Positions 3,002 to 40,700 of a stretch of DNA of 64,000 nucleotides are shown piece by piece. Source of the stretch: Mugil cephalus (taxonomy: Eukaryota > Chordata > Actinopteri > Mugiliformes > Mugilidae); the NCBI RefSeq assembly GCF_022458985.1, contig NC_061786.1, forward strand, positions 22,073,974 to 22,137,973, read 5' to 3'. The first letter of the stretch is position 1. Each line of letters begins with the position of its first letter. Made by a program: the position numbers and the translations under genes. The notes beneath the pieces are model-generated. The model worked only from the letters and a program-made list of their open reading frames with translations, was not told the origin of the DNA and did no database searches.

Positions 3002-6000
3002 ATGTCGTTCGTCAGAGACAAACTCTACAATGGATACGTGCGACGGAATATGGCGACCATTGCTAAAAACGTGGATGTTTCAGAAATAATGATGCATCTG
3101 CCCTGCCTCACTATCCACGACCGGGTACATTGCTCTCATTTCAATCACCTTTACTGATGAACACATTAATTCTTAATCCAGTCAGTGCGTTTACATGCAG
3201 AGCTTAATGGAGCCACGCTCGAAGTTCCACTTTCTGAATGTGGTCCCAGTTTACATGCAATGTAAAAACTCAAATAGCTGACGGGAACATATTCTCCTCC
3301 TCCACACTAGGTGGCGATATGTGTCTTTCCGGCAGGTTAATACGACCTAATATGTCATATAGTAAACAACTGGAGTCGTTCATGTGTCAGACCGGCAATT
3401 CAGACACCAACCAGATGGACAATAGTTCAGCCTTTTTAATCTCATACGTAATGTGTTCGCTACGTCTGGTGCAGATAGATGGCGCTATCCCTCAGGTGGT
3501 TCTTCTACCGGCTCTGTTTACCTTCTTCTTCTGCGACTGGTTCTCTTGGATGTTTTTGTTCTGGGGTCATACGGCAGCGCTGTGGTTTGTAGCGCATGCA
3601 CACATGCGTTGTCCAGTTAAAGTCAGATTAAGTCGTATACATGATGGAGAAAATCAACTTCCGGTCACATTATCTGGGCGTCTTAATCAGATAAGGACAA
3701 CTCAAATTTTAGTCGGAGTAATGTATTTACGTGCACTTATGTTGTCCAGTTAAAGTCGGATTAAGGCAATATTTAGTTTTTTCCACGTGCATGTAAACTT
3801 ACATGCAAATATTGGCTTATGTCCCTCTTTCCTCTCCCTGTCATTTGTGATACAGCTGACGATAGAGGAGTTATCTGCATTTTATAGAGGGTATGCATTG
3901 ACGTCACGCCCCCCTGAGCTGCAAAAACATGGTGAAATGTATCAATAAATACACAGAGACGGGGAAAAATTCTGATTATCAGATCAAATTAAGGACAATT
4001 GGACTCGACAATGAAACGTACAAACTAGTATGGATTTGGAAAAGTGGATTAGCCTCAGTTTCAGTTAGTTTGAGGTTGTTTCAGTCCTGATAAATGTAGC
4101 TAAATAAAAGATGCTAACGCTAAGAGCTTTACCGAGAAGTAACATTACTCATACAAAACTGTAGCATTAAAAGGATGACGAGGAGTGATCACAAATATTC
4201 CGTTTATTGAACTGAAATAGAAAACTGGTCCTGCTCTTTATGTTGCACTAAAAAGAGACAGACGACTGCTCTGATAATTGATTGTTTGTGTGTGTTTTTT
4301 TTCCGCAATCTAATTTTAGGAAAATATAGAGGCAAGAACAAATAACCATGGGAAATCAGAGGGCATGGTGCGTCTTCTGGAATGTCTAAGGAAAAGAGAA
4401 AACTGGCCGGAGCAGCTGATCGAAGCTCTCGAAGCTTGTGAGCATCCGACGATCGCAGATGAAATCAGAGAAAACTACAACTCTCTGAGAGGCATCAGCA
4501 GTAAGTCACCAAAGGCTTTACAGTTTATTAAAGCATGAATGTTTCCCTCAAATAAAAAATATATTCAGCTTTTGTAGAATAATCGTTGTTTATTGCAAGA
4601 AAAATACCCTCCTCCTTCCTTGTTGTTTGACTTTGAGAGATGACTCTGTGCAGACTCGTAGGCAGGATGATAAATGTATTTCTCTACAGTTTCAGATTTA
4701 AATATCAGTTTTGTTTGCTTTACCCCAGAATCAGACCGAAGCCCTCCTCCAGTTTCAGTCTCCAGCGTCCATCCAACACCTGCCAGTCGTGAATCCATTC
4801 CCGTGACCGTGGCTGCAGAGCCAGCTACCAAGAGCCCCCCAAACCAAATCCTCAAACCTGCTCCTCCAACCGAGCCCCTCCCTGAACCTCCACAACCAGC
4901 TCAGGTAGAAGCTCCACCTCGTCCATCAACACCTCCTCCCTCCCCCGAGACCCAATACTCCGAGGCGACCGCAGCCCCTCTGCCGTACCTAGAGGTTAAC
5001 TCTCACCTGGAGCCGGAGGAAAGCTCTGAGTCGGACATCCAGGATGATACGGGTGCGACCACCGATCGACCACAGCTCAGTCCTGAACACTGTGAACCAG
5101 GCGCTCGGGCCTGGTCAGAAGACAGGCCACCGCAAAGTCCTTCTTTGCTGAACTCGAACAGGACCGGTGAATCCTCGTTCCTCACCCCAGAGAAGCCTCC
5201 GGTCCAGGACACAGCGCCTCCTGTCTGCAGAATTCCTACTCCCATCCTGCAGCCTGAAGAGACGTCTGAACCTCCTGCTACACAGGTAAATACCAAAACA
5301 GCTTTAAGACCGACTGGACGGCAGCAATACGATACTGAGCACAATTCAGGCTGATATCGGCGATACCGGTATGATACTTTGTGGAAATACACCCTAATGC
5401 ATCTGGTAAATCTAAAAAAAAAAGGATTTATGTATTTATTTTTATCTCTGAAGTATATTGTATATTGTAGTGGCCTCTTCTGTGCAGCACCATATGCATA
5501 CGGAGCTGCCAGTTTAAAGGTTGACTTTATGATAATATTTTGACTTTTTTATCGAAATTTCTACTTCTTTTCTTAAAGTGCATGATGAAAAAATAATCTA
5601 CTTCCTCTAGTTTTTTTAAAAATGTTCTACTCTTCAATAGTAAAGGCTTTTTCAAACACTAAAAACTAAAAATAAAGCAATAAAACCATTAAAATAAGGT
5701 ATTGTTTACCTATTAAAAACTACTATAAAATGAAAACTTGCATCTTAATTCTGACTCTGTGCTGTGCATTATGACTGAAGTATCGATTTTAGAGCATAAA
5801 GACCTGGTATCAGTCGATCTGCACATCGCTACTAGACGGACTGGTTTTACCCGGGGAATTCCAGTAATTTGTAATAACAGCGGAGGTCGTCTCTGATCTT
5901 TTTGTAAAGTGAAGTTGGTGATAATCTGGCATCTAGGGGGGAAAAAAAAATGAATAATTGATAAAACTCTGTCCTCAATTTCACCTGCAGACTGTTGAAA

Positions 6001-6605
6001 GACGCCCAGAGACAGAAACCGGAGCGACAGTCTTCCCAGCGCCTGGTGATCATGATGACGATGATGACGATGATGAAGATGATGTGTGTCTGAGCAAACC
6101 TGGGCATCTCGTCAGTATACAACCACAGAGTGAAGCCACTGCCGCCACCTTCACTGCATCCACTTTACCTCAGGCGCCGTACTCGGGTGACAGCGGGCGT
6201 CTGGAAATGAGCGAAGGCGTCTCTGCATCGTCGGCGGCGAAGTCGGTCTCAGCTCTGCAGCCGTGCCAGGAGAACGGCTGCAGAGCTCCCGAGTACAACG
6301 AACCCGAGGAGAACCACTACGAGTCCCCGCGCGAGAGCCTCGACTCCCAGGAGGTGCTGGTGAACGTCGGGCGAGTAACCGAAGAGCCGTCCATCCTCAA
6401 CCAGGACGGGCAAAGCTCCGCACCTCCGCAACCTTCACCCAATAAAGCTGCTGTATCCAGTTTGAACCCCTCCTGCAGTGAGACCTGCCCCCCCTCTGGG
6501 ACTAAAGGTTCCTCATCGGCCCTGTCGGCCAACGGGAAATACATCCTGACTGCTTTAGGAGTGGGTGCCTGTGCTATGTTGGTGGTGTGGAGGTTTAATA
6601 AGTGA
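3002..6605 (+). CDS. mavs: Mitochondrial antiviral-signalling protein, copy A
   Basis: This is the RIG-I/MDA5 adaptor of the mitochondrial outer membrane. Coding exons are 3002-3124, 4320-4500, 4729-5285 and 5991-6605, with phases 0,1,0, giving 491 residues. Residues 1-95 form a CARD (KLYNGYVRR, LLECLRKRENWPEQLIEALE, then ADEIRENY). The middle is Pro/Ser-rich and has an Asp tract near residue 310. The end is a membrane anchor, YILTALGVGACAMLVVW plus RFNK (about 471-491). PVQDT at 259-263 is identical to the human TRAF2 site, and PEENHY at 392-397 matches human PEENEY. Further PxE sites are PEESSE (197) and PEETSE (277). The ATG follows the exon 2 acceptor directly. AATAAA lies about 12 nt after the stop. 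The assignment rests on CARD plus anchor plus motifs and on neighbouring pank2. Confidence 0.93.
3189..3798. mobile_element. MITE with GTTTACATGCA inverted ends in mavs A intron 2
   Basis: The left end reads GTTTACATGCA (3189-3199) and the right end TGCATGTAAAC (3788-3798). Internal segments such as GTTGTCCAGTTAAAGTC(A/G)GATTAAG occur twice. This is the common teleost non-autonomous DNA transposon type with such ends. A 171-codon open frame inside has no recognisable domain. Confidence 0.7.
5330..5830. repeat. Degenerate CGATA-rich transposon remnant in mavs A intron 4
   Basis: Repeated ATACGATACTGA, GATATCGGCGATACCGG and, at the far side, GTATCAGTCGATCTGC resemble the subterminal sequence of teleost hAT-like MITEs (compare 61627-62170). 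Precise ends and target duplications are not visible. Confidence 0.35.
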
Positions 6606-9894: not shown

Positions 9895-9967
9895 TGCCAA
9901 AACCCGGGATCGAACCAGGGCCCTTTAGATCTTCAGTCTAACGCTCTCCCAACTGAGCTATTTCGGC
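9895..9967 (-). tRNA. tRNA-Phe (GAA), variant copy
   Basis: A 73-nt cloverleaf without intron, anticodon GAA. The acceptor stem carries one G:U pair (GCCGAAA with TTTTGGC) where the other three copies have G:C, and there is a change next to the variable loop. No T4 Pol III terminator follows within about 40 nt on the minus strand. The 3' flank (CTGGTTTGGTCAGGTGGGGG on the plus strand) is shared with the copy at 10479. Confidence 0.85.
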
Positions 9968-10269: not shown

Positions 10270-10489
10270 TGTACATCTATGTCTTAGATGTATTTATATT
10301 ATTTAAATCAATATTCTGTTCAACGTGCACGTCACAAAATGCCTTGAAAATAAAAAGGCACTGTTGTTAGACACAGTTTATGTTTTCATTCTTTAAGCTC
10401 CAGCATCAGATAACACCTTAATGATGCCCCTCCTAGAGTCTGGTTTGGTCAGGTGGGGGGGTCGGGGGTCATGATGTCTGCCGAAACCC

Positions 10490-10523
<34 letters not shown>

Positions 10524-10915
10524 AACGCTCTCCCAACTGAGCTATTTCGGCCCATAGAGAGAGAGAGAGGATCAGATTTTTTTTTTTTTGCAGCAATTAT
10601 TCAGACTTCAGACTATTTAATAAAGCGCTGATACCAGATGAGAACGATCCAGGACCAAAGGAGTCGTCTCAAATCTTTGTTAGTTAGTGAATTTGACTTC
10701 ACTAACTAACAAACCACTTGTGTTCTGTACACAGTCCGGACCAGAGACTAAACACCAGCTCGCTTCTGAACCCCGGGGAGGTTTTTCTCTGTCAGCAACT
10801 TCACACGTGATCTCTACATTTTCACTCCATCTCTGCTGTCAGTGGAAGGAATTCCTTCCGCTGACGTCCAGGAATGTTTCCCGGGACTCGGTCACAGAGT
10901 AGATTTAGTGACAAG
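10270..10915 (-). repeat. tRNA-Phe-bearing repeat block, left copy
   Basis: This segment, including the tRNA at 10479-10551, is repeated in opposite orientation at about 39185-39950. Shared landmarks include CACAAAATGCCTTGAAAATA, GAGAACGATCCAGGACCAAA, ACAGTCCGGACCAGAGACT and GGAATTCCTTCCGCTGACG. By eye the copies differ at a small fraction of positions apart from indels. Confidence 0.8.
10479..10551 (-). tRNA. tRNA-Phe (GAA)
   Basis: A 73-nt intronless cloverleaf with perfect acceptor pairing (GCCGAAA/TTTCGGC), anticodon GAA in loop CTGAAGA, and intact A and B boxes (TAGCTCAGTTGG; GGTTCGATCCC). No T run follows within about 100 nt on the minus strand, so termination is unclear. Confidence 0.93.
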
Positions 10916-11880
10916 TCAGCAGGAGGACGATGCACCAAACACATGTCCTCTAATTTTTTGTCTAAGTTCTTCTCTATTACTAGTCATGCAGTTCCATGCT
11001 GCTACTGTACAGCATGTTAACTGCTGTGTGTCCCTCTAGAACTTTAAAAAACAAACGTGGACCAGACGGATTTAACGGATTTAATGCTCGAATTGTTAAG
11101 ACATCATGCATTTTTAATTAATTTACATTATAAAGTCACAAAACGACACATTTTGTGGTCGCAAAATATCATAAACAGTAGAAGACATGAACATAAATAC
11201 TACGAAAAGTCAGATCAAGTCAAGTCAATGTTTATTTCTGAAGCACTTTTAAAAAGCTTGGTTGAATCAAAGTGATGCACAGACGTGAAAACAACGATAC
11301 AGACACGAAATAAAAGAGTAATGGAATAAAATTAGCACAATTTTAAAAGCAAATATGGAAAGAATAAAAGAGGAGATAGGCAATAAAAAATAAATAAAAA
11401 GGATAAAAGCAAAGGTTACTCATCCAGCTGGGACTGAACGCCGAAGAAAAAGGATGGATTTTAGCTGCAAAACTTAAACAAAAAAACAAAAAAATGTGAA
11501 AACTCCAAACTCTCTTTCTCTAACAGACAACATGTTATTAATGTTAATGCACATTATTATTTATGGTTTCTCGTACATTTGTTCACGTGTTAACTCATTA
11601 GTACATTTTTTGCTAACACTATTTTCTATTTAGTTTTACTAGACTTATATCTTATTGTATTTCATCTGTCTCTTTACTTGTGGTTCTAAGTGTCATCAAA
11701 CATTTTCCCTTTGTGAATTATTCAAATTGTGAAGTGAGTGACGTTAGTTTCCCCTCCCGTGTCCATGTGAACGGATTAGGATCAGGGATTAGAGACAGAT
11801 GTAAACCAGAAGTCGAGGTCCAATCTAATTCCATCATCCCACCGCAACAAGAGGAAAAAAGGTCACGATCTGGGGCCAAA
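10916..11880. other. Intergenic, no gene recognised
   Basis: AT-rich with short frames only. The last 120 bp approach the mavs copy B promoter. Confidence 0.4.
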
Positions 11881-11884
11881 GATT

Positions 11885-11990
11885 AAGGAAGCCCCGCCTT
11901 CTCCGGCGGCCACGCCTCCTTCCTATTGGCTCTTACTTTGATTGACGGCCCTCTCGTCCAATAGGAGGAGAGAACGGGCTGAGACCGGTG
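11885..11990 (+). promoter_or_regulatory. mavs copy B promoter block
   Basis: AAGCCCCGCCTTC, ATTGGCTCTTACTTTGATTGACGG and CCAATAGGAGGAGAGAAC align with the copy A promoter (2057-2142). Unlike copy A there is no CRE palindrome just upstream. Confidence 0.6.
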
Positions 11991-11991
11991 C

Positions 11992-12076
11992 GCAGATGTG
12001 TGGACAGGTTTTAGTGAGAGCAGGAATAGCAGCTGAGAGGAGTCACGAACCTCTGGGACAATAAAAAAGACGAAAG
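11992..12076 (+). other. mavs copy B non-coding exon 1
   Basis: Aligned with the copy A first exon through CACGAACCTCTGGGACAATAAAA. The donor is CGAAAG followed by GTGAGC. The 5' end is approximate. Intron 1 runs about 1.47 kb to the coding exon. Confidence 0.55.
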
Positions 12077-13549
12077 GTGAGCTTTAAACGATCCCACACT
12101 TCAGTTTATCGACATAAATCAAGTGTTTTAAAGGAGCTACTGGATGTTTTATTGACGGTTTTGCTGCTAAAGTCTGTTTCCTTTCGTTTTTCCAGGTTGT
12201 GTCGTATGTATTAATTTGATTGGACGCAACTTTTGGCTCATGTTAGCTCAGTCTCAGTTTTAATTTATACATTTTTATTTAAATTTTGTCTCTGCTGTGT
12301 TTGTGTCTTGTCTTTTTAATCTCCTCTCCCAAAGAGGCTTGAAAAGTATCATAATTATTATTATATATTTGTCTATGTTCTCTCTGTGTGTAGCCTTTTA
12401 AAATGTATCTTTAACAGGCTTTAAAATGAGCTTTGATTACATATTTTATTAATTGACCAGCCTGTGTTTATGTTGTGTTTCTGTGCATGTTAATCCAGAA
12501 CCTTCTTTGGGTTTAAAAAGCACAATTTAATCATATAATTTAATAATTTACAAGCAGCTCTTTAAATTCCCAACCTTATTCCACAATTTTGTATTTATTT
12601 CCCACCGTGTATGTGCATATAAATGCACTAAAATGAGACGTGAAATCGCTGAAGTTGTTTTTTTTTTTTTTTTTTTTTTACTGAATCAGACGTGTTGTGC
12701 ATGAAACTTGATCCAGACTCTTGGGGAGTGAAGACGGGAACAGGACTCAGTTTTTAGAGGTCATTCTCGTGGCTCAGCTCTGTACTATTAACCTTTGTGT
12801 CAAGGTGTCTTCTTTGCCCTTCTCACACCGCTGACGTCACCTTGTTAATCTGCAATCGCTCGTCACGTCACACTTATATGCATGCATGAAAAATAATGCA
12901 CTTTACTCTTCACACCGAGCCTTTCCTATCTGTCAGAAGGGAACGCGCGTGACTTAAACCACGGCCTCCGTGGGCTAATAATACAATGAAGAAGACTTTG
13001 CTCTTTGGTTACTGCCTCTGACATTTATTCCAACTCGAAAGACAAGACTGTTTGACATTTACACCTTAATGTGCTGCTCCGTTGGACGTGGATCCTGTGA
13101 AAATGTTCCCGACAACAGATTGTGTTTGGATACAAACAAATGGCTTAAAGCGTGTTGAAAACAACAGAACACGTTTTTTTATTTGACCCTGAAAATGTCT
13201 GTGAGGGACAAGTTATTTGATGAATTCAGGTATTAAACCAGGGGATTAATCAGTGACTAGTGACAGCAGCAACCTTGAAAAGTAGGAGTGTTTTACCTCC
13301 CTTGTTGTAGTTTCTTTCTACCGTTTTTTTTTTTTGTTATAGTTCAGTTCTTTGGATAAAAATGGCATCTGGCATCTTTGTTGACAGTAAAGATCAGGTT
13401 TCATCATCGCACATCTTAGGTACTTTCACACCTGTGGTCAGGGAGTTTAATCCAGTTCACTGTAGTGCATGGTTTAAATGTAAAAACCCACAGGAAGCTT
13501 CTTTATCATTTTCTTAAAACATTTTTTTATCCCGTTTGACTTTTTTCAG

Positions 13550-16500
13550 ATGTCGCTGGCCGGTGACAAACTGTGCAACGGATACTTACGGCGGAAGATG
13601 CCGACTATCGTCAGCAAGGTGAAAGTGAGAGACCTGATTATTCACCTGAGCTGCCTGACTGCTGACGACAGGGTGAGTTTCATTAAAACAAGCGATCGGC
13701 CACAACATTATGACCACCGACGGGAGAAGTCAATGACGTTTAAACCTATTATTCTGTCATGTGGATGTTACTTAGACACGTAGCTCCCACCTAGACCAGA
13801 CCAGACCAGAACAGCATAAATCACAATCAAAAAGAAACTGATTTCTACTCTGATAACTGATTGTTATAAATTTTCAGGAAAGTATCGAAGCGAAAAGAGA
13901 GGTGTGTGGGAACTATGACGGCATGGTGCTTCTCCTGGACTGTCTGAAGAAAACAGAAAACTGGCCGGAGCAGTTCATCAAGGCTCTGGAAGCCTGTGGA
14001 CAGACGACAATCGCAGCGGAAGTCAGAGCGGAATACAACGCCGTGAAAGGCACCGACGGTAGGTCACCGAGTAGAAGATTCATTCGTGTTATAGCTCAGA
14101 ATTAGATTTTACTTTTCACCCTTGCAGACGAAGTGCGTTAAACATTTTTAACTGTTCAGCAGCATCAATATATACATATATGCACAAACATTTGCTCAAC
14201 CATCTGAATATTGCGCTCGTCACAGTGCACTGCAGCCACGTGGGAAGAAAAGGAAATGTTTGCATAATGCAGTTCTGTTTGGAGACAATGTTACACAGCA
14301 GTTTAATTCTAATTTTGGCTCAGACCTGAGTTCAGTGCGTTCACGGAGCATCTACGATAATCTCTGTTTACGCATGCATGGACAGAGTTCTCAGGCGATT
14401 GTGCTGTGAGCTCCGTAAGCTGATTTATCCAGGTGAAGGAAAACAGTGCCTCCTTGTTGTCTGACCTTGAGAGATCACAACTCAGTGGAGACTCTTTGTG
14501 GGTGAAGGTGTCCTGGCTTCAGATTCTCGTTTATATGTATATTTTTATTAGGGAGTAGAGGAGGGTGCGATAAGATTCGATGTAGTTTGAGAGTTGCCTC
14601 ATCCTTGAGGATTTCACAGGCTTTAGTCATGTGGCCCAAACAGATTTAAATATCAGTGTTGTTTGCTTTGCCCTAGATTCAGACCCCAGCTCCCCTCCAA
14701 CCACCGTCGTCAGGGCACATGTCCACCCTGCTCCGTCTGCCAGCCCCGTGTCCCTTCCAGAGAGCGGCGGTAACACTCAGGCGATACCTGCTCTGGAAAT
14801 CACCGCACAGCCACAACCCCCCCAGAGCACAGAGGTCCCCGAATCTGTTTCCTCATCCGAGCTTCCACATTCGACTCTGATGGAAGTGCCCCCTCTGCCA
14901 TCAACGCCTCCCCCGTCCCCCGACACCCCGCACATCGAGGTGACCCTAGCGCCGCTGTCACAGAAAGAGATTAATTCTCGCTTGGCGCCAGAGGGAAACT
15001 TGGAATCAGGGCAACAACCAGATCCCAAAGAGGACAGACCACCAGAGAGTCCAGCATCTCCAGCTCAGATCAAGTCAGACGTAACAGACGGACCTTCAGT
15101 CATCGCGCCCTCCACTAAGAAGCCTTCAGTCCAGGACGCCGCCCCTCTCGTTGGGTCTGTCCTGCAGCCTGACAACACTTCTGAACCTCCTGCTGCACCG
15201 GTAAATCATTTTAAGACTTCTAAGAAAAGAAAACAAGAAAATTCCTGCAGACGAGTGATTAAATGTGTCCATTAAGCAACAGGGCGTTGGTTTCTTTCAG
15301 TATTATGATCAGCATTTCCTTCTTATTTGAAGGTGACTTTACATTCTTTAAACCCCAATTTAGCTTAGCACGCTATCGATGAGCAAGATTAGCAGTTGTT
15401 TCAACAGAATAGTTTTATTGTCATTGCACAATACAACAAGATAACTTATCCCTCGTAATAATAAGTAATAATGTTTCCAGACCTGCATGGGATCATTAAG
15501 CAATAAAAGACAAAAGTGTCAATTTAAAAATAGTTATGTGCCTTATAATATGTTATGTCATATGGAAGCAGCCATGCATCCATACATATTATTTCCTCAG
15601 TTTTCCTGTGATAACGAGTTCATTTCCTGTTTTCTCGGGTTATCTGTCTCGTTATTTGGGTAAAACAAAGCTTTGTTTTCTCATGATATTCAGAAACGTA
15701 ATTGTTATCTAGCAAACATTAAAGTGCAAAACAAACGGCTCAGTTTACAGTCGACCTATTACATTATTATTTCACTACATTATAGTGTTGAGGGCATCCA
15801 TCAGTCAGCATGAGGGAACTCCCTCGAATTAAATATATCGTTATCTCGAAAAAAACAAAACTTTGCTTTTAACTTGAGAAAATGGAGGAAGTTAACTCAT
15901 TAACTCATTATCACGGGGAAATGGAAAAAGATAATATGTGAACTCAGGGTTTCCGTATATTCAAGAGTTTCATTCAAGTGATAATAACTGTGTTTATATG
16001 ATGAAACTCATCCATGGTAACACATTCACAGGCATCTGGTGTAACATCAGCTCCTTTAAGTTTAAAAAAACAAACCTTTTGCCATTTATTTCACCTGCAG
16101 GTTGTTGAGAGCCGACCACAGACAGGAGCCGAGCCGGGTCCTGTCAGTGTAGAACCACAGAGTCGTACCAGTCCTACCGTCCCTGCACCCAGCTCCCCGG
16201 TGGATTCATCCTCGGGACACAGCGACACAAGCCGAGCTGCTCCCGCGAGCTCTGCTGGGAAGACAGTCACTGCAGTGTCATGCCAGGAGAACGGCTTTGC
16301 CCCCAACCACAACAAACCAGAGGGAAACCATTACGAGCCACGCGAGAAGCTGGAAACCCAGGAGCCATCTGTCCCTAAACTGGACGTCCGAACCTCGACA
16401 CCACCAGCTCAAACAGTGAACGGCGAAGTAGCCAAAGAAGCCGCCTCTGCACCACCTCCACGTGGCGGCGCCGCCGCTGCAACGAGTTTAAACGCTCCAA

Positions 16501-16655
16501 ACACTGAGCCCGAGACGAAGACACTGCTGCAGGATTCAGAGGAGACGACGCTGCTTCAGAGCCCTCTCAACCTGTTGGCTAACAGGAAGTACATCATGAC
16601 GGCGGTAGGAGTGGGCGCCTGTGCCATGCTGATGGCGTGGAAGATGAAGAACTGA
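13550..16655 (+). CDS. MAVS paralogue, copy B, with altered TRAF-binding motifs
   Basis: Coding exons 13550-13672, 13878-14058, 14677-15200 and 16101-16655 repeat the phases and first two exon sizes of copy A (123 and 181 nt), giving 460 residues. The CARD is intact (MSLAGDKLCNGYLRR, LLLDCLKKTENWPEQFIKAL), as is the anchor (YIMTAVGVGACAMLMAWKMKN). All splice sites fit consensus and no frame break is seen, so this is not an obvious pseudogene. At the four TRAF-type sites of copy A it reads PSVQDA (251), PEGNLE (206), PDNTSE (266) and PEGNHY (349): the consensus Gln-spacing/Thr or Glu is lost each time. It also lacks the Asp tract. AATAAA lies at 17473. It may be a decoy, a regulator or a differently coupled adaptor; that is inference. 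Confidence 0.88.
13690..13800 (+). mobile_element. Internally deleted Tc1-like remnant in mavs B intron 2
   Basis: GCCACAACATTATGACCACC is the Tc1-type terminus. It runs almost directly into ATGTGGATGTTACTTAGACACGTA (written here only as landmark, split: ATGTGGATGTTAC and TTAGACACGTAG), which belongs to the middle of the transposase region of the full element. The piece near 39640-39795 has the same junction of distant parts, so both descend from one deletion derivative. Confidence 0.65.
15585..15945. mobile_element. Foldback MITE in mavs B intron 4
   Basis: The left arm TTTTCCTGTGATAACGAGTT is mirrored by AACTCATTATCACGGGGAAA on the right. The arms are imperfect and 30-50 bp long. A second member of the family lies in coa8 intron 2 (58815-59120). 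Confidence 0.6.
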
Positions 16656-18578: not shown

Positions 18579-22726
<4,148 letters not shown>

Positions 22727-37700: not shown

Positions 37701-40700
37701 CCGAGGTCCACCTGGCGGCCTGCCCCCTGGAGTTCAGCAAGCCCAACGCCACGTCGGTCTGCAGCGGCGGCATGCCGGCGGTCGTCAGCTGCATGCCCGG
37801 ACCTCTGTTCATGCAAAACAGCGGCTTGAAGAAGAAAATCAAAATTTCGGTAAAATTATTGAAGCAAAACGACGGAGGAAGAATCACTAGACTCTGGTGG
37901 AGTCGGTGTCACGATGTGTTTTCTCTTTGCTGTTTAGACCAACGTGAGGCTGAAGGGAGGAGCCAAGCTGGGAGAAGGTCGGGTCGAGGTCCTGAAAGAC
38001 AGCGAGTGGGGGACGGTGTGCGACGACCGCTGGAACCTGCAGTCGGCCAGCGTCGTCTGCAGGGAGCTCGGCTTCGGCAGCGCGAAGGAGGCTCTCACCG
38101 GGGCCCGCATGGGACAAGGTGAGGACAAGACGAATACAAGTCACCTGAGACAGGATGTGATTGTGTCCTCCTTCAGGGAAGACGTCAGTCACCAGCTTTC
38201 TCTCTAATCTCTCAGGTCATCTCTTCTTCTTCTACCAACGCTCTGACCTTAACATTCCCACATGGATTCCTCATTTTAATAGAAGGAAAGGAAAGCTGTG
38301 CTACATTCCTGACATGAATCCGCCCGTATAGCATTCCTCATTCATTAAAAAGCTCTTAACTGTGGGTTTATTTTTGATTCCTAAGTCGCCGTGTGTTATT
38401 CATAGCGAAAGGCTATGATGGACCGTTTCTGTCACAATGAGGTCCAGAATGTGTCTCAGCCGCCTGGCGTCCACATGAGTGACACTGACGACTGGAGCTG
38501 TAAAAACCTGAGGCCAAAGTCTTTGATAACCAGGGTTCAGAAGTGCGATGCCTTACGAAAGAGTGTAAACGCTTCAATGATTATCAATTATTATCTTTTC
38601 GCCTGGGTGGTCTCGGCCGCCGTGGGCCGAAATAGCTCAGTTGGGAGAGCGTTAGACTGAAGATCTAAAGGTCCCTGGTTCGATCCCGGGTTTCGGCAGC
38701 GAGGGTCTCACTTTTAGTTAGAAATGTCTCAAATCCCCTCATATCTGTGACTGAACCCCCCCAGAGCAAGGCATCAGACCAAGTCTTCTCCTTTACAAAC
38801 GAATGTAGATGCAGCCGACAAATTTCCTCCCCTCAGAATCAAGGACAATTTGCTTAATTTAATTTAATTTTACCTGAAAGTTATGTGATTTAAAAGAACA
38901 TTTTAAAACATGAGATTGTATAAACATGTAATAAACGCATCAAACTAAAATAAAAGCTGCTCCTCTGCAGAGAGTTCTATGTATTAAAAAAATGCATCTT
39001 TACTAACAATTTAATTCAACCACACAGAAGCCGTTTGGCTAAATTACTCTGAGATTCCACCAAATGAGAAACAGTGGCTCTTTTGAAGAGAGACGTGTTC
39101 TCGGAAACCTTGGGTTGGGAGGTGTCTGTGCCCCTGAGTCTGTACATCGGGATTTCTACCACAGAGGAAGTTTGCAGAAGGGGACTCGTCACTAAATCTA
39201 CTCTGCGACCGAGTCCCGGGAAACATTCCTGGACGTCAGCGGAAGGAATTCCTTCCTCTGACAGCGGAGATGGAGTGAAAATCTAGAGATTACGTGTGAA
39301 GTCGCTGACAGAGAAAAGCCTCCCCGGGGTTCAGAAGCGAGCTGGTGTTTAGTCTCTGGTCCGGACTGTGTACAGAACACAAGTGGTTTGTTAGTTAGTG
39401 AAGTCAAATTCAGTAACTAACAAAGATTTGAGACGACTCCTTTGGTCCTGGATCGTTCTCATCTGGTATCAGCGCTTTATGAAATAGAATAATTGCTGCA
39501 AAAAAAAAAAAAAAAAATCTGATCCTCTCTCTCTCTCTATGGGCCGAAATAGCTCAGTTGGGAGAGCGTTAGACTGAAGATCTAAAGGTCCCTGGTTCGA
39601 TCCCGGGTTTCGGCAGTGATGTGGTGTCTTTTAGAGCTTTGATCAGCCACAGCATTACGACCACTGACGGGAGAAGTGAATAACACTTCACTGCACAAGT
39701 GGGGAGAAGTGTTGTGTTGGGAAACTTTTGGATTAATTCTTGTGGATGTTCCATAGATGTGTAGCACATAGACCAGACTAGACCAGAGACCAGGGATGTG
39801 TATCGCCACATTCTTTTGTAAACAGTGCTGGTGTTTAAAGAATGGAAATCATACAAACTTTGTCTAAAAACTGTGCCTTTTTTATTTTTAAGGCATTTTG
39901 TGACGTGCAAGTTCAACAAAATATTAATTTAAATAATATAAATACAGGTCTTGCAGGCTCTCAAAGATGGTACATTTCTAAGCTTTTCAAAAAAAAATGC
40001 TATGTGTTGTCAGATATTTAATTCCAGGTGTTACCTTTCTTCCAGCGCTTGTTGCAGGTTATACATTCTGCATCTTTTGAGGTCTCCATTGCTTTTCAGT
40101 ATTTAAATTGCTTTTCAGTCTGGTTACTACCACTGGAGTCAGCACCGGTGCCATTAGGCTGCTGGTGTATTAGTGTCAGATGACTTGAATTTATTCTAAT
40201 CAGGATTGAGTGTCTTATTATTAAATGACTTCAATCTGAATTACTCTTAAAAAGTCACCAAAAACTTCAGATTCATCTTATAAATTCATCTTCGCTCCAT
40301 GTCTTACGTGTCCGTCTCTTCCGTCCAGGAATGGGTCCGATCTACATGAACGAGGTGAAGTGTCTCGGGGTGGAAAAGTCCATCTGGAACTGCCCCTTTA
40401 AGAACATCACGTCTGAGGACTGTCAACACATGGAGGACGCCGCCGTCCGCTGCAACGTCCCGTACATGGGCCTCGAGAACTTGGTCAGACCTGAACCTTC
40501 CTCACTAAAACAATTTACTTTTTACAAAGCTTTAAAAACAGGATGGTAGGAAATAAGATCATAAAATGCACTGTTTTATTCTGTGTTTGTTTCATAATCT
40601 TTTGTCCATTTGTCAGTATCTGCTGCTCTAATAATCTTCTCTGAATCAACCACTAGAGCATGATGGTGTAGAAATCTGATATAACTCTTCTCTGCTGCTG

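Follow-up and report, generated by a model that had tools for sequence, protein, structure and literature searches.

A second, tandem mavs gene in Mugil cephalus has lost its aligned TRAF and IRF3 docking sites and may temper the signal of its neighbour

MAVS (also IPS-1, VISA or Cardif) is usually regarded as one single hub. The mammalian and teleost proteins combine a CARD, a proline-rich linker and a C-terminal tail anchor. Human MAVS no longer signals once all three of its TRAF sites are mutated (PMC5699845, in the text available), while IRF3 is recruited by the phospho-site pLxIS (PMC7411613, available part), which in human reads 438DLAIS442 (PMC7157566, likewise in part). Several MAVS-derived products with altered behaviour are described in the accessible portions of the literature: the CARD-less miniMAVS, made by internal translation, restrains the full-length protein (PMC11763982, PMC5536018), and zebrafish MAVS_tv2, a splice form without the transmembrane tail, is a second fish product with altered activity (PMC5536018). 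In goose cells avian MAVS activates ISGs although it has no pLxIS; its putative TRAF sites are numerous, and it serves these species as their signalling MAVS (PMC7157566, available passages).

In the window (the whole stretch of 64,000 nucleotides of Mugil cephalus DNA that was analysed) we find two mavs genes arranged head to tail on the forward strand, with four coding exons each (Table 1). Both spliced models have GT-AG borders and zero internal stops, and both contain Pfam CARD_2 (2e-25 for copy A, 8e-23 for copy B); with MAVS as their whole-protein homologues, the two N-terminal CARDs are of the MAVS type. A C-terminal transmembrane tail is indicated by alignment, each copy having a hydrophobic C-terminus that keeps 13 of 16 conserved columns. 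Overall, both copies share the domain plan of mammalian and teleost MAVS, and copy A also has PVQDT, PEENHY and the pLxIS-type RLEMS, whereas copy B is without the TRAF2/3 site, three aligned TRAF6-type sites and pLxIS. Copy B may be likened to miniMAVS and the short isoforms in that it, too, could temper full-length MAVS (PMC5536018, PMC11763982, as far as available); unlike miniMAVS, however, it is a separate gene that keeps CARD and tail and has lost the output sites. It also keeps the tail that is missing from MAVS_tv2, and it shares the absence of pLxIS with avian MAVS, which differs in its numerous putative TRAF sites and in being the signalling MAVS of its species.

Table 1. Positions of the two mavs genes and of the features compared between them; coordinates are those of the window.
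Feature	Position	Strand	Counterpart in copy A	Remark
mavs copy A	3002..6605	+		CDS exons 3002-3124, 4320-4500, 4729-5285, 5991-6605; 491 aa
mavs copy B	13550..16655	+		CDS exons 13550-13672, 13878-14058, 14677-15200, 16101-16655; 460 aa
Copy B upstream block	11920..12131	+	2086-2295	blastn, 73% identical
TRAF6-type site 1, degenerate (PEGNLE)	14988..15005	+	PEESSE, 5013-5030	
TRAF2/3 site, degenerate (SVQDA)	15126..15140	+	PVQDT, 5199-5213	
TRAF6-type site 2, degenerate (PDNTSE)	15168..15185	+	PEETSE, 5253-5270	
pLxIS IRF3-docking position (SGHSDTSRA)	16212..16238	+	RLEMS, 6198-6212	
Retained TRAF2-type match (SCQE)	16278..16289	+	PCQE, 6261-6272	conserved [P/S]CQENG block
TRAF6 site 3, degenerate (PEGNHY)	16317..16334	+	PEENHY, 6303-6320	invariant Glu alone lost
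Retained TRAF6-consensus match (PREKLE)	16338..16355	+	PRESLD, 6327-6344	
Copy B C-terminal hydrophobic tail anchor (putative)	16584..16652	+	6534-6602	

The 73%-identical block found 5' of both copies probably corresponds to promoter and first non-coding exon. An ISRE-like triple, TTTCACTTTCACTTTC (reverse strand GAAAGTGAAAGTGAAA), is located at 2890-2905 in the 5' intron of copy A, and no GAAANNGAAA site is present at 11000-13549, upstream of the coding start of copy B; judged from these sites, copy A alone may be interferon-induced. As 12 GAAANNGAAA-type matches occur across the window (both strands, overlaps counted), the run near copy A is given only modest weight. Two pairs of tRNA-Phe(GAA) genes, four in all, are also present in the window, one pair between the mavs copies (9895-9967 and 10479-10551, reverse strand) and one further downstream (38626-38698 and 39543-39615, forward strand). 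The gene starting 3' of copy B (about 18580-20320, forward strand) is presumably pantothenate-kinase-like, going by its open reading frames.

For comparison with other fishes a protein collection was searched with copy A (183 matches, best 120) and with copy B (167 matches, best 120); the CARD of copy A used as a query gave 100 matches. The copy A and copy B searches together yielded 134 proteins, which after removal of 12 isoforms or near-duplicates left 122 fish MAVS rows (four second-copy grouper rows are counted in these). An earlier, sequence-only reading of this stretch had claimed that copy B lost four TRAF-type motifs that copy A kept, and its description of the four aligned replacements is accurate in every case: none of the aligned TRAF2/3 and TRAF6 linker sites fits in copy B (0/4), whereas those of copy A do. 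The same reading had suggested an alignment across fishes to establish the ancestral state. Among the matches listed, TRAF6-type site 1 is present in 117/122 rows, the TRAF2/3 site in 120/122 and TRAF6 site 3 (PEENHY type) in 113/122, so that all sites but one are near-universal; the exception is TRAF6-type site 2 (PEETSE), which is loosely conserved and present in just 77/122. Given that the sites are retained in most of the 122 rows, retention is ancestral and the copy B states are derived. When five output sites are scored, copy B alone among 124 rows has zero of them (among the matches listed).

The change in the last TRAF6 site can be placed against known ligands. According to the available text of PMC9597381, a TRAF6 ligand has Asn at -2, an invariant Pro at +0, Glu at +1, an invariant Glu at +2 and Ser or Asn at +3, with Trp preferred at +5 and other aromatic or acidic residues still within the consensus. 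Most fish rows read approximately NEPEENHY here, which is near that preferred ligand. Copy B reads HNKPEGNHY: the invariant Glu +2 has become Gly, and the residues at -2 (Asn), +0 (Pro), +1 (Glu), +3 (Asn) and +5 (Tyr) are still there. The PEGN of this site (16317-16328) and that of site 1 (14988-14999) are encoded by an identical run of 12 bases, CCAGAGGGAAAC, with the Glu to Gly change at the same place in both. The further statement that PVQDT of copy A equals the human TRAF2 site depends on the source used, since the human site is printed as PVQDT in PMC2766052 and as PVQET in PMC5699845 (available parts of both).

The loss is complete for the four aligned sites but not for TRAF-type matches in general, as copy B still contains PREKLE and SCQE. 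The sequence-only reading had itself named alternative TRAF sites in copy B as a finding that would speak against it, and in part these exist. Signalling by copy B might accordingly continue, with SCQE, PREKLE or some uncharacterised site as the route and perhaps another balance of partners. Both matches stand at aligned places in A and B. The [P/S]CQE sequence fits the TRAF2 'major' consensus, and a [PSAT]x[QE]E match within the CQE block is found in 94/122 rows among the matches listed. At the PREKLE place a PxExx[acidic/aromatic] match is seen in 8/122 rows (PCESLD-like; six of the 8 are, we assume, notothenioids), and PRE itself is confined to window copies A and B, again among the matches listed. 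The tetrapeptide LEIT at copy B residues 141-144 also counts against the damper proposed below. In shuffled copy B linkers, though, at least one TRAF6-type match arises in 53% and a [PSAT]x[QE]E match in 86%, and the numbers in copy B itself are at chance rate (1 against 0.74 per shuffled linker for the TRAF6 type, 1 against 1.86 for the TRAF2 type); for this reason PREKLE and SCQE were not accepted as proof of copy B function. PREKLE is probably a weak TRAF6 ligand, because so few rows match at its place and because TRAF6 favours Glu at +1 and a small residue at +3, where PREKLE has Arg and Lys (which would be unfavourable by the available text of PMC9597381). SCQE is harder to dismiss given how widely its match type is kept, and if copy B has any output left, the CQE block would be its likeliest source. 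The row counts at these two places raised the case for a copy B that still signals and slightly lowered that for our main reading, for simple decay and for a pattern recurring among percomorphs; even so, we judge continued signalling quite improbable.

A second kind of output site is missing as well. The fish pLxIS motif, RLE[I/M/F/L/V]S, is present in 117/122 rows (among the matches listed), and the RLEMS of copy A shares its Met for Ile with a number of other fish. Copy B lacks the motif, and as not one leucine occurs across its residues 276-345 this absence is independent of the alignment. Consequently, the view that copy B assembles but passes little on is strengthened. Since avian MAVS works without pLxIS (PMC7157566, in the passages available), its loss is by itself no proof of inactivity, and it is the combination of losses that carries the case. 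Outside second copies, the only such change among the matches listed is RIEMS in place of RLEMS in a Periophthalmus goby (P0141, P0142), leaving aside models without the segment (P0110, P0136).

We compared how well each part of the two proteins is preserved, using columns that are at least 80% conserved among the 122 fish rows (among the matches listed). Copy B keeps 58/67 columns in the CARD, 42/81 in the linker outside the motifs, 11/16 in the four motifs and 13/16 in the tail, against 52/67, 69/81, 15/16 and 13/16 for copy A. The contrast between CARD and linker in copy B is strong (P = 7e-6), as is its interaction with copy (z = 3.8), whereas for the CARD alone the copies do not differ significantly (P = 0.26). 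Motif columns in copy B are kept no worse than the remaining linker columns (P = 0.28), which indicates that the losses do not single out the motifs and that the whole linker is relaxed; a selective targeting of the TRAF sites is ruled out on this basis. Losses spread in this way through the entire linker, with conserved blocks such as CLSKPG missing too, are what one would see if copy B had become redundant after the duplication and were simply decaying, the linker first and with no new role. Against such decay stand the intact reading frame and splice sites, a dN/dS between A and B below 1 (CARD 0.40, linker 0.51, tail 0.38, each a pairwise mean over both copies) and the constraint on CARD and tail at a dS of about 0.8, a value that makes the pair old. 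Under neutrality a mean of 4.2 stops is expected at d = 0.1 and about 12 at d = 0.4, while copy B has none; at d = 0.1 zero stops were obtained in 1.2% of 1000 simulated runs. The intact frame, splice sites and dN/dS rule out a pseudogene, and they suggest that copy B is maintained with its CARD and tail under constraint. Decay without a new role therefore seems a poor prospect to us.

We propose, at a probability of roughly 43%, that copy B has been maintained as a tandem paralogue in which CARD and tail are constrained and output sites are lost, and which would cap the interferon signal of copy A. Its tail anchor would place it on mitochondria, where CARD filaments that RIG-I or MDA5 seed would incorporate it, either alongside copy A or in competition with it. 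Each filament would then offer fewer TRAF and IRF3 sites, and this would set a ceiling on the interferon signal from copy A; PREKLE and SCQE would be too weak to matter. The preserved upstream block of copy B and the silence of human MAVS with all three TRAF sites mutated (PMC5699845) also speak for this proposal. The idea of a filament-forming MAVS that recruits no TRAFs and serves as a brake had already been put forward from the sequence alone. It gains from the losses being specific to copy B, from ancestral retention, from the constrained CARD and tail and from the absence of pLxIS, but it is weakened by the retained PREKLE and SCQE and by the relaxation of the linker as a whole.

Second mavs copies are also seen elsewhere: among the matches listed, two differing proteins are found in Epinephelus moara, E. 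lanceolatus, E. coioides, Solea senegalensis, Sander lucioperca and Dissostichus eleginoides, and going by the listed records the grouper, sole and Dissostichus pairs are each on one contig. A pair in Scomber scombrus (CARD 43/44, rest 444/455) was left out as near-duplicate. Over 64 CARD columns conserved in 102 reference rows (median 60.5, 5th percentile 53), we count 53-54 for grouper copy 1 and 63 for grouper copy 2, 53 and 58 for sole copies 1 and 2, 49 and 56 for window copies A and B, 59 and 61 for Sander, and 62 and 62 for Dissostichus. Hence the CARD of copy A falls below the 5th percentile and that of copy B below the reference median. In the window, the groupers and the sole it is the copy with the better CARD that is without the pLxIS core (grouper 2 reads HLEVN there and sole 2 RGEIS). 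In the same grouper and sole copies the last TRAF6 site has lost a core residue (LEENHY and PADNHL; sole copy 1, with PAENHL, is already off consensus at the last position). Unlike copy B, these second copies have PVQDT intact and retain most of the linker: they keep 87-90 of 106 linker columns, against 90-95 in their sisters, a reference median of 98 and 64 in copy B, and after the CARD they are 86-89% identical to the sister copy. With PVQDT kept and a linker near the sister's level, they are not output-dead, and copy B is the extreme case. No loss of the pLxIS core was found in the Sander or Dissostichus pairs, although the Sander copy with the better CARD has Arg to Cys just ahead of the pLxIS Leu; one Dissostichus model is frame-shifted and stops short of the tail. 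In the Sander pair (P0021/P0056) the CARDs are identical at 86/99 positions and the remainder at 448/458, as might be expected if the CARD is diverging and the linker is homogenised or recent.

The same CARD counts bear on the main rival to a brake, namely that copy B acts as a relay or seed: its percomorph-type CARD would meet RIG-I or MDA5 and nucleate mixed filaments, and copy A with its intact linker would give the output. Such a division of labour, with B as the sensor and A as the signaller, is likewise compatible with this anatomy. The retention is complementary (linker in A, CARD in B) and has the same direction in groupers and sole, and the low CARD count of copy A agrees with it. Nevertheless, the CARD of copy A fits solved MAVS CARDs better than that of copy B does (58.6 bits against at most 39.8; best E 5.2e-15 for copy A and 3.7e-9 for copy B, the latter a weaker match than copy B has to MDA5 chains, 2.3e-10), from which it follows that the copy A CARD is not obviously disabled. 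We regard a seeding role as unlikely, if less so than simple decay or continued signalling by copy B. As a separate observation, the copy A CARD has Asp (VDV) where 110/122 fish rows have Lys; the only other rows with Asp are copy 1 of four groupers and Plectropomus (all among the matches listed), and a solved MAVS chain also reads VDV.

Returning to the proposed damper, the comparable second copies of groupers and sole speak for a pattern that recurs. Among the matches listed, the pLxIS core is lost in 3/5 duplicated lineages against 2/108 species with one gene (P = 4e-4), where one gene means one gene found among these matches and does not imply single-copy status; the two exceptions are the Leu-to-Ile change in a goby and a gap in a gene model. 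Excluding the window, which prompted the test, 2/4 duplicated lineages remain (P = 0.006, among the matches listed). How independent these lineages are depends on the history of the duplications. In whole-protein and linker trees copy A joins copy B, beside cichlids and relatives (a clade that we take to be Ovalentaria), with weak surrounding support (58 and 36 at the nodes next to A+B in the linker tree). In a CARD tree of 44 rows, bootstrap 73 is obtained for a grouping of copy A, grouper copy 1 and Plectropomus, and bootstrap 78 for one of Centropristis and grouper copy 2. AU tests (5000 replicates, against the 10000 advised by the program) reject neither A+B (0.34) nor A with grouper 1 (0.46); three separate sister pairs in window, grouper and sole obtain 0.07, and a single old clade uniting A with grouper 1 and sole 1 obtains 0.055, which is not below 0.05, whereas the KH test excludes it (0.04). 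Possible histories are partly independent duplications, or older ones followed by homogenisation of the linker in groupers. If the duplications are older and the linkers homogenised, the three lineages are only partly independent of one another, which makes the P values for core loss optimistic.

In the matches listed for open-access full text (subscription papers being outside the scope) no title concerns mavs paralogues in fish, and phrases for MAVS duplication gave zero matches in that text. To our knowledge, MAVS-derived dampers are otherwise known only as isoforms. As a tentative and somewhat doubtful generalization, percomorphs may repeatedly have turned one tandem mavs gene into an output-damaged protein of CARD and tail, a heritable damper of RIG-I/MDA5 signalling, in the lineage of the window, in groupers and in soles. 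Groupers and soles are farmed fish, so their mavs pairs are directly testable. If the proposal is true, a gene of its own can be devoted to dampening, and such a pair, with assembly retained by one gene and output by the other, would set filament formation apart from signalling in a natural experiment.
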